This document shows, in pieces, positions 2,254-6,682 of a DNA stretch of 64,000 bases; position 1 is the first letter of the stretch, and each line of letters starts with the position of its first letter. Made by a program: the position numbers and the translations under genes. Origin of the DNA: Nannocystaceae bacterium (GTDB taxonomy: Bacteria; Myxococcota_A; Polyangia; Nannocystales; Nannocystaceae); contig JAIBBS010000005.1 in assembly GCA_019694555.1 (NCBI GenBank), positions 1 through 64,000 of the forward strand, written 5' to 3'. The notes under the pieces are model-generated. The model was not told the origin of the DNA and ran no database searches. It saw only the letters and a program-made list of their open reading frames with translations.

Positions 2254-3603
2254 TCAACGTCGCGGCCGCACGTACTCGGCGGGGTCGACCTCGGTGCCCG
2301 GGCCCATGCGCTCGACCAGCCGCGACACCCGCGGGCGCTCGATCGCGACCGGACCGGTGCGCGCGCGCTCGGCCTCGTCGATGGGCTCGCGCACGACCTG
2401 CCACAGCCCGTTGGCGAAGGGGATGTCGGGCGCGACCGAGACCAGCTCGATGCGCTCGCGCACGCCCATGCGCTCCATCTCGAGCGCGCGGTGGTGACAA
2501 AAGGGGTTGTTGCCCGGGCGCCCGAGCAGCGGCTCGGCGGTGGCGGTGCAGCCGGCGCGGCACTCGTCGGCGTAGTAGCAGTCGCGGCAGAAGCCCCACA
2601 GATCGTCGAGCGTGCGCTCGCGGATGTACGTGATCTCGGGCGCGTCGGCCCACAGCGCCGCGAGCCCGTGCTCGCGCCACGAACCGGCGATGTTGGTCGG
2701 GCCGCCCACGCTGGGGCAGCTCTTGATCATGCCGTTGCTCTCGATGCCGAGCGTCACGACACCGGCGGTGCAGCCACCGAAGTGGCCGCCACGACGCTGC
2801 ACGTAGCGCAGCTTCTGTTCGTTGGGACCGAAGTAGCCGAGGTTGTTGCCCGGCAGCAGTCGGATGCCGCGCTCGCGGCAGCGATCGGCGATCACGTCGA
2901 GCTGCTCGAACAGCTCGGGGATCATGTACGGCTGCAGGATCAGCTCGGGGTGATCGGCACCGTTGCCGTGCACCATCGTGAGCTGCAGCTGCCAGCCGAC
3001 GACACCGGCCTCGGTGATGCGGTCGAGCAGCGGCAGCAGATCCGGCACCGTGAGCGCGTTGATCTGCGTGTTGACGCCGACCTTCATGCCCGCGGCGCGC
3101 GCGTTCGCCAGCGCGGTGAAGGCCCGACGCCAGCTGCCGGGCTTGTTGCGCACGCGATCGTGGTTGGCCTCGAGCCCGTCGATCGAGACCGACGCCAGCA
3201 GCAGCCCGGCCTCGGCCGCAGCCGCGCAGCGCTCGGGCGTGAGGCCCCAGCCGCCGGTGACGATGCTCGAGCCCATGCCGTGCTCGCGGATCGCACGGAC
3301 CACGAGGATGAAGTCGTCGCGCAGGTAGGCCTCGCCGCCGATCAGCGCGACCTCGCCGACGCCCAGTGCCGCGAGGTCGGCGACCAGGCGCAGCGCTTCG
3401 TCGGTGGTGAGTTCGTCGTCGCGCGCGTAGCCAGCCCGGGGCCCGCAGTGCAGGCACCGGTGATCGCACATCAACGTGAACTCCCACACCGCGAGCGTCG
3501 GCTTGGGTGCCGGCCCGAGGTTCTTGTCGGTGAAGCTCCGGTCCTTCGCCCGCGGCAGCGAGGCCACGACCGGGAGTCGACGGCGGACGTCCTGCAGCGC
3601 CAA
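2254..3603 (-). CDS. Radical SAM/SPASM protein-modifying enzyme
   Basis: About 449 residues. The radical SAM motif CxxxCxxC is at C46, C50, C53, which bind the 4Fe-4S cluster that cleaves S-adenosylmethionine. A complete SPASM domain follows: C278, C296, then C339-x2-C342-x5-C348-x3-C352 and C369, enough for two auxiliary clusters. Known enzymes with this layout (PqqE, anaerobic sulfatase maturases, ranthipeptide and cyclophane maturases) modify peptides or proteins. It is the last gene of a three-gene minus-strand operon with an HTTM protein and a small lipoprotein carrying two LYGPxTG motifs, its likeliest substrate by context. The start is uncertain: TTG 3603 lies 8 bp after the preceding stop, and GTG 3567 is an alternative. 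Longer versions would overlap the lipoprotein gene. Confidence 0.9.
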   Translation of the reverse strand: MALQDVRRRLPVVASLPRAKDRSFTDKNLGPAPKPTLAVWEFTLMCDHRCLHCGPRAGYARDDELTTDEALRLVADLAALGVGEVALIGGEAYLRDDFILVVRAIREHGMGSSIVTGGWGLTPERCAAAAEAGLLLASVSIDGLEANHDRVRNKPGSWRRAFTALANARAAGMKVGVNTQINALTVPDLLPLLDRITEAGVVGWQLQLTMVHGNGADHPELILQPYMIPELFEQLDVIADRCRERGIRLLPGNNLGYFGPNEQKLRYVQRRGGHFGGCTAGVVTLGIESNGMIKSCPSVGGPTNIAGSWREHGLAALWADAPEITYIRERTLDDLWGFCRDCYYADECRAGCTATAEPLLGRPGNNPFCHHRALEMERMGVRERIELVSVAPDIPFANGLWQVVREPIDEAERARTGPVAIERPRVSRLVERMGPGTEVDPAEYVRPRR

Positions 3604-3610
3604 GGTCGTG

Positions 3611-4120
3611 TCAGCCGGTCGGGGGGCCGTACAGCGGGCCCACGGAGTCGCTCGCGCCCGACGTGCTCGCGCCGGTGCCACCGCCGGAGGTCGAGCCGCT
3701 GTCGGAGCCACTGTCGGCGCCGCTGGTGCCCGAGGTGCCGGAGGGATCGGTGTCGCCGGTGACCGGACCGTACAGCGCACCGGTCATGACGCCGCTGCTC
3801 TCGGTCACCGTATCCGAGGTGCCCGTCGTACTCCCGCTCATCGAACCGCCGGTCGTGCCGCTCGACGACGTGGTGCCGTCGGTCGCGGTCGCCGTGGCCG
3901 ACGCGGTCTGACTCTCGCTGCCGCCGTTGCTGGCGGTGCCGCTGCCGTCGTCACCACCGCAGCCGGCGAGAGTGACACCGAGCAACACGCCCAGGAAACC
4001 ACCCAGCGGGGCACGGGCATCGACGAGACCCTGTCCGCAGAACGGGCAGCGCGACGACTGTTCCTTCACGAATCGACGACAACCAGGACAAGCAAGCATC
4101 GCGTCGATCTTGCGCCTCAT
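3611..4120 (-). CDS. Small zinc-ribbon lipoprotein with two LYGPxTG motifs, candidate modification substrate
   Basis: 169 residues. C11, C14, C25 and C28 (CPGC...CPFC) form a zinc-ribbon-like knuckle. A hydrophobic segment (about 39-53) ends in LAGC (C54), a plausible lipobox preceded by an unusually long n-region. The rest is Ser/Thr/Gly-rich linker except for LYGPVTG at 116-122 and LYGPPTG at the extreme C-terminus (163-169); these are the only two tyrosines. Conserved motifs in a low-complexity tail beside a radical SAM/SPASM gene suggest the tyrosine region is modified; this is inference. It lies 24 bp after the HTTM gene and 8 bp before the radical SAM gene. An internal ATG at 4102 is possible. 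Confidence 0.8.
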   Translation of the reverse strand: MRRKIDAMLACPGCRRFVKEQSSRCPFCGQGLVDARAPLGGFLGVLLGVTLAGCGGDDGSGTASNGGSESQTASATATATDGTTSSSGTTGGSMSGSTTGTSDTVTESSGVMTGALYGPVTGDTDPSGTSGTSGADSGSDSGSTSGGGTGASTSGASDSVGPLYGPPTG

Positions 4121-4144
4121 TGCAGGCGTCGCGCAAGTGCGACG

Positions 4145-6682
4145 TCAATCGACCGGCTCTGCTGCCACTGCGGCGTGGGCCTGCGTCGGTTCGGCATCGG
4201 GGTCGGTCGGGGTCGGGGGTGTCGCGGGCGTGGGCCGTGTGGTCGGGCGCTGGGGCCGCCGCGGATGCTTGCGGATGATGGTGCGCTCGTCGACCTCGGG
4301 GAAGCCGTGGCGCGCACGGATCTCGTTGGTCAGCTGACCGTCTTCTTCCTTCGCGCAGTCGACCTCGATGAGCGAGCTGCGATGGCCCTGGCGCTCGAGC
4401 AGCTCGGCCGCGCGGTACCAGCCGCGCTTGGCCACGACGTCGGGCGCAGGGATCTCGTACCAGTGCCGCACCAGCTCGACCTTGCGCGGCACCTCGCCGC
4501 CGTGCTCGAGCGCCCATGCGCGACAGTGGTAGCGCGCGACCCACACGCGGTACCACTTGCCTTCACCGATGACGCGGCGCGTGATCTTGCCCGCGCGATC
4601 GTAGGCCAGCCACGGTACCGGCTTGTTGCGCGGCGAGTTGGCGTCGGTCCGCAGATCCCAGACCTCGCCCGCGGCGTCGGTGACGTAGACCTCGAGGAAG
4701 TCGTTGGTCCGCATCGGGTTGGGCGCGAACATGTCCCAGCTCTGCGAGGTCTGGGTGAGGTTGAGCCACAGCGCCAGCGGTGCGTTGGCGCGGCCGCGCC
4801 ACGCGGAGCAGGTGTCCTTGTCGGGGATGCAGTGCATCGCGACCGCGGTGATGTACGTCGCGACCACCGTGGTCGCGAGCGCGCGACCCAGCGGCCCGTA
4901 GGACCACGCCGGCGTGTCGACGGCATCGGCACCGCGGCGACGCCAGCCCACCAGCGTGCCGCCCAGCAGCGCGGCGGTTGCGAGCGCGACGCTGCCCCAG
5001 CGCACGCCCGCGCCGCCGCCGTGGACCTCGCCGAGCACGAACGCCGCGACCGCGCCGAGCACGGTCAGCATCGCCGCGGTCGGCATGCGCGCGGTGTCGT
5101 GGTGCAGCGTGGGCAGCCGCGGATCCTCCGGCGGCACCGGCGGCTCGCCGTTGCGCACGCCCGCGGGCATCGGCACGTGCAGCCGCGACAACGCGCGGCC
5201 CAGCGCCCGCAGGATCGAGGCCGTCTCGGTGCCGTTGAGGCAGCACAGATAGACCATGATCATGATCGGCGCGAACATGCCGATGTTCATCAGCATGAAG
5301 ATCTGCACGTGGAAGAACATGCCGATCGTCAGCCACACGCGGCGACCGAGCACCCACGTGCAGAAGCCGTTCAGATCGATGCGCAGCCGGTGACGCCGCA
5401 GCCGCAGCTCGAACGGACGATCTCGCAGCCGCCGCCAGCCCCAGGCGATGCCGGCCATCAGCGCGAGCCAGCCGCCCGCGACCAGCCACTGCACCGTGAG
5501 CAGCGAGGGGTCGCCGGCGCGCGGGGCGTAGTGCACCGGCAGCGCGACGATCGTGACCGCGAGCGAGCACAGCCCGATCACGGTCCACAGCCCGCGGGTC
5601 AGCCACGCGCGCACGCCGGTCGGCCGCGCGAAGCCCTCGCGCAGCTGGAACCGCGCGACCAGGCCCACCAGCATGAGCGGGAAGCCGATCTGCCAGAAGT
5701 GCACCGTCCAGGTCATGAGCCGGAACACGTTGGTGCCGAACATCCACGACATCAGCTGCGGCGGCACGCGATAGAAGTGGTCGAGGTTCAGCGCGTAGTA
5801 CAGCGAGTCGCCCGAGGCCCAGATCGATCCGGTCTTGGCCGAGCCGGTGTAGAGGTAGATCGTCGCCAGCTGCAGCATCATCAGCATCCGCGGCCACGCC
5901 GGCACGCCGCGGTAGATCGCCGCCAGGCCGTGGGGATGCTCGGCGCTCGGTGCTGCGCCGGCGCCATCGCCGGGGCCGCCACGCTCGCTCAGCCGACCCG
6001 CGCGACGCAGCCGTCGACACCGCAGCCAGTTGTCGAGGCTGTAGGCGTGACCGCTGCGCGAGAGCATCAGCAGGAAGAAGAAGACCTTGTAGACCACGTC
6101 CGCGCCGGTCCAGTAGACCGGGTTGCGCGAGGTCAGGCTGGTCATGAGCAGCCAGCCCAGCACCGCCATCGTGCGGGTCTGCCAGCCGACCAGCAGCAGC
6201 GCGCACACGATCACGTAGGCCCACAGGTGCAGCCAGAAGAACCACGGATCACTGCGCAGCAGCAGCAACGAGTAGCGCGGCCCGCGAAGCAGCTCGAACA
6301 CCGCGGCGGTGTCCTGGAAGCCACCGGGGTCGCCGCCGGTGGGCTCGACGTAGCCGGCGAATTGCTTGCCCGCGAGCAGCTTGCGCGCGCTGTCGGTGTA
6401 GAACAGCCCCTCGTCGGTGAAGAGGAACTCGAGCTGCTCCCACATGCCCACGAGGTTGAGCAGCAGCAGCGTCGAGAACAGGATGCGGAACAGCCCCAGC
6501 GTGCGCGGGTCCTCGGTGCGCAGCCACAGTCGGCGCCAGCGATCGGCGTGCACGATGCACAGCGCGAGGAAGGCGAACACGGCCGTGAGCACCAGCCAGC
6601 CCACCGTCGGCGACAGCGCCTTCGCCTCGAGGTTCGGGATCCGATCCGCGATCGCCAGCAACGACCACTGCGCCACGTCCAT
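4145..6682 (-). CDS. HTTM-domain integral membrane protein (VKGC-like)
   Basis: About 845 residues with many transmembrane helices. The N-terminal half carries the HTTM signature region: LGLFRILFS, a helix with NPVYWTGADVVYKVFFFLL, then LATIYLYTGSAKTG and a YALNLDHF segment. HTTM proteins include vitamin K-dependent gamma-glutamyl carboxylase and SdpB, which matures the SdpC toxin. The C-terminal half adds TM helices, SQSWDMFAPNP (typical of the family) and a soluble tail rich in Pro/Thr. I chose ATG 6682 because the N-terminus is compact there; an in-frame extension to 6766 has no family character. It heads an operon with the LYGP lipoprotein and the radical SAM enzyme. Its reaction is unknown. 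Confidence 0.85.
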   Translation of the reverse strand: MDVAQWSLLAIADRIPNLEAKALSPTVGWLVLTAVFAFLALCIVHADRWRRLWLRTEDPRTLGLFRILFSTLLLLNLVGMWEQLEFLFTDEGLFYTDSARKLLAGKQFAGYVEPTGGDPGGFQDTAAVFELLRGPRYSLLLLRSDPWFFWLHLWAYVIVCALLLVGWQTRTMAVLGWLLMTSLTSRNPVYWTGADVVYKVFFFLLMLSRSGHAYSLDNWLRCRRLRRAGRLSERGGPGDGAGAAPSAEHPHGLAAIYRGVPAWPRMLMMLQLATIYLYTGSAKTGSIWASGDSLYYALNLDHFYRVPPQLMSWMFGTNVFRLMTWTVHFWQIGFPLMLVGLVARFQLREGFARPTGVRAWLTRGLWTVIGLCSLAVTIVALPVHYAPRAGDPSLLTVQWLVAGGWLALMAGIAWGWRRLRDRPFELRLRRHRLRIDLNGFCTWVLGRRVWLTIGMFFHVQIFMLMNIGMFAPIMIMVYLCCLNGTETASILRALGRALSRLHVPMPAGVRNGEPPVPPEDPRLPTLHHDTARMPTAAMLTVLGAVAAFVLGEVHGGGAGVRWGSVALATAALLGGTLVGWRRRGADAVDTPAWSYGPLGRALATTVVATYITAVAMHCIPDKDTCSAWRGRANAPLALWLNLTQTSQSWDMFAPNPMRTNDFLEVYVTDAAGEVWDLRTDANSPRNKPVPWLAYDRAGKITRRVIGEGKWYRVWVARYHCRAWALEHGGEVPRKVELVRHWYEIPAPDVVAKRGWYRAAELLERQGHRSSLIEVDCAKEEDGQLTNEIRARHGFPEVDERTIIRKHPRRPQRPTTRPTPATPPTPTDPDAEPTQAHAAVAAEPVD

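Follow-up and report, generated by a model that had tools for sequence, protein, structure and literature searches.

Organization of the locus

The window analyzed here is a stretch of 64,000 nucleotides from a Nannocystaceae bacterium (contig JAIBBS010000005.1, positions 1 to 64,000). Close to its start, three consecutive genes on the minus strand encode an HTTM-like membrane protein, a small lipoprotein and a radical S-adenosylmethionine (SAM) enzyme with a SPASM domain. A preliminary description of this DNA had placed the three genes at the same coordinates; the gap of 24 bp between the first two was reproduced, but the second gap amounts to 7 bp rather than 8 bp. The relevant features are as follows.

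2254..3603, minus strand: PlpX-like radical SAM/SPASM enzyme, predicted splicease (449 aa, TTG start most likely)
3611..4120, minus strand: Zn-ribbon lipoprotein with two LYG sites, predicted substrate (169 aa, likely start ATG 4099)
4037..4090, minus strand: N-terminal Zn ribbon CPGCRRFVKEQSSRCPFC, proposed leader and docking element (residues 11-28, four Cys)
3959..4006, minus strand: hydrophobic segment and lipobox LAGC (L-A-G-C54) with the predicted lipidated Cys54
3755..3775, minus strand: LYGPVTG, first predicted splice site (xYG is the conserved element of the tail)
3614..3634, minus strand: LYGPPTG, second predicted splice site at the C-terminus (PLYGPATG is C-terminal in the orthologous pairs L001-L004)
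4145..6682, minus strand: HTTM-like membrane protein, a neighbour and probably no component (845 aa)

The tyrosines of the 169-residue lipoprotein are indeed confined to LYGPVTG and LYGPPTG. Overlooked earlier was a Zn ribbon with four cysteines ahead of the hydrophobic segment and lipobox. Since relatives carry a Met immediately before the first ribbon Cys, translation more likely starts at ATG 4099. In the enzyme, the sequence RRRLPVVASLP directly after the TTG start at 3603 is conserved among relatives.

The enzyme belongs to the PlpX clade

Two NCBIfam models match the enzyme best, TIGR03913 (GDL motif maturase, 1e-121) and TIGR04103 (nif11-class peptide radical SAM maturase 3, 8e-118), and the next family (7e-33) follows far below. 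Eighteen relatives behave alike, with up to 1e-158 for the PlpX-type and GDL models and 1e-33 to 1e-47 for the next families. TIGR04133 (rSAM_w_lipo), likewise a radical SAM/SPASM family, has a name that implies a lipoprotein neighbour, but its match is far weaker (1e-32). The CxxxCxxC motif (C46, C50, C53) and the seven SPASM cysteines (C278, C296, C339, C342, C348, C352, C369) described earlier are all present and invariant in the 18 relatives.

PlpX is the cyanobacterial splicease from Pleurocapsa, which excises tyramine from Xaa-Tyr-Gly and functions together with PlpY, a partner with a RiPP recognition element (RiPP, ribosomally synthesized and post-translationally modified peptide). TIGR04103 is presumably the equivalent of InterPro entry IPR026482. 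PlpX has been assigned to the latter (PMC11002830). A TIGR04103 enzyme encoded on a Nostoc plasmid shares 42% identity with the window enzyme over 379 aa, including the radical SAM and SPASM cysteines and a GNNxGYxxPxE motif. In a tree with few outgroups on long branches, both enzymes fall into one clade (SH-aLRT support 95), apart from other radical SAM proteins encoded by the host genome. Judged by sequence, the window enzyme is thus a member of the PlpX clade, a relationship at clade level. An AlphaFold model (pTM 0.84) has its best Protein Data Bank matches, by Foldseek, in PqqE, SkfB and SuiB; searched by sequence, the same database returned distant SPASM and MoaA relatives only. The model confirms a peptide-modifying SPASM fold, which does not discriminate between chemistries.

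Enzyme and lipoprotein form a conserved pair

The enzyme was found in 150 of 379 Myxococcota genomes (E <= 1e-40). For the analysis of gene neighbourhoods, the surroundings of 80 enzyme matches and 24 loci from named genomes were taken, and partners were sought within 3 kb of the enzyme gene with a model of the region from ribbon to lipobox. A ribbon lipoprotein lies within this distance of 101 of 113 enzyme genes, on the same strand in 84 cases. Three further partners (L096, L099, L120) were added by inspection, and some further partnerless loci end at contig edges. At the Nannocystis loci, the ribbon model located the partner downstream on the opposite strand. Partners share a common plan: an N-terminal Zn ribbon (CPxCxRHV..CPFC), a hydrophobic segment, a lipobox Cys and a disordered tail with xYG sites. 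Ribbon proteins (E <= 1e-6) occur in 88 genomes, up to 17 in some of them, and the enzyme is encoded in 87 of these 88, counts that ignore phylogeny. By this gene pairing, the earlier association of the lipoprotein with the SPASM enzyme is supported: the pair is a conserved system, whereas the trio with the HTTM-like gene is not.

Six loci (L017, L085, L087, L104, L107, L126) hold two enzymes each, which fall into different clades of the tree, and one to five substrate lipoproteins; the enzymes usually flank the substrate array. Perhaps they form a heterodimer or divide the sites between them. At another locus the enzyme itself (L130:4002-5330) carries the substrate motif at its C-terminus (EKYGAPPMRK), and the contig showed no separate partner.

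Tyr-Gly is the conserved element of the tails

In 140 distinct partners, tyrosine is followed by glycine in 275 of 327 cases in the tails, where 54 are expected from composition, and 138 partners contain one or more YG downstream of the lipobox Cys. As a control, 47 lipoproteins without the ribbon, encoded at the same loci, were inspected; here 24 of 290 tyrosines are YG. The tails have a high content of G, A, D, P, T and S, with tyrosine accounting for 2.4% of their residues; the consensus reads [P/A]-[L/A/M]-Y-G-[A/G]-P-P. A position-independent test with 40 ribbon proteins whose genes lie apart from that of the enzyme gave the same picture (YG in 38 of 40 proteins; 89 of 100 tail tyrosines). 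The tail tyrosines are hence a conserved feature, as had been suspected. SPASM genes without such proteins and poorly conserved tyrosines, named in advance as observations that would speak against the idea, were both looked for; the figures found (101/113, 275/327 and 38/40) point the other way. The literal motif LYGPxTG, however, is local to the closest relatives and too narrow; most relatives have xYG[AG]PP, and what is conserved is the core xYG followed by Ala/Gly and Pro.

Nearly the same core occurs beyond the Myxococcota. The Nif11 precursor of the Nostoc PlpX-type operon ends in IALYGLPPELF, and the partner peptides of GDL maturases sometimes contain PYG (RPYGPAMV, QPYGAGIR).

Several tails deviate in detail. 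YS replaces YG in L090:5202-5660 and L076:5396-6052 (IPIYSAAFPP and PTPYSCPP, respectively). In L007:1612-2142 the tail reads ESWGPVTG, with Trp at the position of the window's Tyr, and has one DYG in addition. Unlike the long tails, those at L096, L101, L105, L123, L140 and L142 have YG directly or almost directly after the lipid Cys (ACYGAP).

The Zn ribbon as a putative leader

The four Cys of the ribbon, its CPFC and one Arg are invariant in 18 diverse relatives. Position -1 of the lipid Cys is A, G or S in all 140 partners, and 135 of them have the hydrophobic segment. Due to the ribbon, the n-region is unusually long for a lipoprotein. No Pfam or NCBIfam model reaches its cut-off on the ribbon lipoprotein substrates.

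In Tropicibacter a ribbon of the same style is fused to the N-terminus of a related enzyme (L153:3683-5305), and in Azospirillum and Aureibacter it is found at the enzyme's C-terminus (L150:3893-5443; L152:3938-5362), the partners there being DUF1843 peptides. Among the Myxococcota enzymes no such fusion was seen. The ribbon thus switches between enzyme and substrate, which suggests a docking element. Since it lies before the lipobox, lipoprotein signal peptidase would take it off with the signal. Hence, we infer that the myxobacterial ribbon serves as leader and signal peptide in one.

Proposed mechanism

The preliminary description had proposed a modification of the tyrosine region. Pairing and the conserved YG agree with this; the chemistry that we propose, PlpX-type tyramine excision at Xaa-Tyr-Gly, had not been foreseen and follows from the clade of the enzyme. 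We consider it probable that the enzyme is homologous to the PlpX-type spliceases and acts on the small protein, from which tyramine is excised before the leader is lost on export. Taken by itself, tyramine excision at the xYG sites likewise appears likely, by analogy to PlpX.

The enzyme would bind the lipoprotein precursor in the cytoplasm, with the N-terminal Zn ribbon as the probable docking site. At each Leu-Tyr-Gly (LYG/AYG sites across the relatives) a tyramine equivalent, C8H9NO, would be removed (-135.08 Da) and the backbone rejoined, leaving a leucine-derived alpha-keto-beta-amino residue. The precursor would then be exported as a lipoprotein and cleaved by signal peptidase II ahead of Cys54, a step suggested by the lipobox, which would remove the ribbon leader. 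As a result, a spliced, electrophilic (ketoamide) tail would be anchored at the cell envelope. This tail could plausibly serve for covalent trapping of proteases or amine nucleophiles. Protease inhibition is a guess, made because spliced peptides have been reported as protease inhibitors (PMC10373908).

Comparison with known systems and alternative explanations

With the PlpXY spliceases and their spliceotides from Pleurocapsa the pair shares the SPASM clade, the XYG followed by Pro-rich residues and several sites per precursor, located near the C-terminus. In contrast to PlpXY, with its Nif11 or nitrile hydratase-like leaders, the precursor here is a lipoprotein in which a Zn-ribbon leader precedes the lipobox, many precursors are encoded apart from the enzyme, and neither a maturation protease nor a peptidase-transporter was noticed. 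The second related system, GDL maturase with DUF1843 partners (TIGR03913, PF08898), provides the best NCBIfam match of the window enzyme and has partners that can carry PYG; its ribbon, however, is on the enzyme rather than the substrate, and small DUF1843 peptides lacking a lipobox take the place of the ribbon lipoproteins.

Several observations weigh against the proposed splicing. Both best models have curated cut-offs above the scores obtained: 725 bits for the TIGR04103 equivalog (window enzyme 393.6, a paralogue 409.7) and 591.75 bits for TIGR03913 (window enzyme 406.6), and none of 59 genomes of the class exceeds the latter. We know of no assayed member of the window enzyme's branch. A single 71-aa Nostoc query revealed no PlpY homologue near the loci. 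At position X, Ala, Pro, Asp and Arg are common, a broader choice than in the natural MYG/LYG sites. YS or a complete lack of YG is found in a few ribbon proteins (L090, L076, L180, L204), and at four enzyme loci no YG partner was seen (L005/L070, which are the same locus twice, L018, L022 and L124). The disregard of phylogeny in the co-occurrence counts belongs here as well.

The strongest alternative is that the enzyme modifies the YG sites by another radical reaction, such as a Tyr crosslink, C-alpha epimerisation, oxidative decarboxylation or beta-carbon chemistry. The homology to the assayed splicease type is at clade level (about 42%), and the enzyme also matches the GDL maturases, for which no report of their chemistry was found in the literature. 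The lack of a PlpY hit with the short query points in the same direction, and SPASM enzymes with Tyr-directed chemistry exist, e.g. in mycofactocin formation (PMC8326336). However, the xLYGxPP core recurs in the cyanobacterial PlpX-type precursor, and since GDL partners can hold PYG, YG tracks the whole clade. We regard another reaction at these sites as rather unlikely, yet as the most serious competitor of tyramine excision.

The preliminary description had also assigned a role to the HTTM-like protein, which was thought to act on the modified lipoprotein or to export it. Its similarity to HTTM proteins such as VKGC and SdpB is limited to weak matches below the cut-offs (PF05090 HTTM, 22.1 bits with a gathering cut-off of 27.7; TIGR04033 SdpB, 21.5 bits with a cut-off of 178.4). 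The window genes are on one strand and tightly spaced, and a paralogue adjoins the enzyme at two other loci, L071 and L072, which makes three loci with the window and lies above a rough chance estimate. About 97% of enzyme loci, however, are without an HTTM neighbour. The orthologous pairs L001-L004 have other upstream genes, and the closest HTTM orthologues (68-70%; L156, L157) lie away from any enzyme gene. The HTTM-like family is multi-copy: most genomes of the bacterial family to which the window belongs carry 7-14 paralogues, some small or incomplete genomes carry fewer, and two genomes (G095, G126) have several copies and no enzyme. As a component the HTTM-like protein was thus discarded on grounds of synteny. 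It is probably not part of the system, and a role in processing or export of the lipoprotein seems improbable.

Finally, the YG sites might remain unmodified, serving for example in envelope binding by Tyr-Gly repeats, with the enzyme acting on another nearby target; many unmodified proteins do carry YG motifs and some genomes encode far more substrates than enzymes, but given the tight pairing, the near-exclusive co-occurrence, the failure to notice any further conserved small partner at the enzyme loci and the modification of XYG by the clade-mate PlpX, this is the least probable explanation.

Implications

In the open literature searched, the pair is undescribed; Scott et al. 2022 may list such precursors, which is the main risk to its novelty. 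The recurrence of the pair across Myxococcota suggests chemically reactive, spliced surface proteins. In its widest form the proposal is that in much of this phylum families of envelope lipoproteins, with up to about 17 members in one genome, are backbone-spliced by dedicated radical SAM enzymes, that the ribbon combines a RiPP-like leader with the n-region and is cut off on export, and that reactive alpha-keto-beta-amino residues are displayed on the surface. We give this extended version an even chance.

The splicing mechanism predicts a single mass shift at named residues, which eases a direct test. If it is correct, backbone splicing would be a routine modification of surface proteins and not only a route to secreted peptide products and other RiPPs. 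A Zn-ribbon leader and its removal by lipoprotein signal peptidase would likewise be undescribed in the literature searched. Ketoamides have been reported as bioorthogonal handles and, together with the inhibitory activity reported for spliced peptides, this would make each genome a source of ready splice tags. For these predatory bacteria, the tails may possibly constitute a surface-bound inhibitor or crosslinking system.

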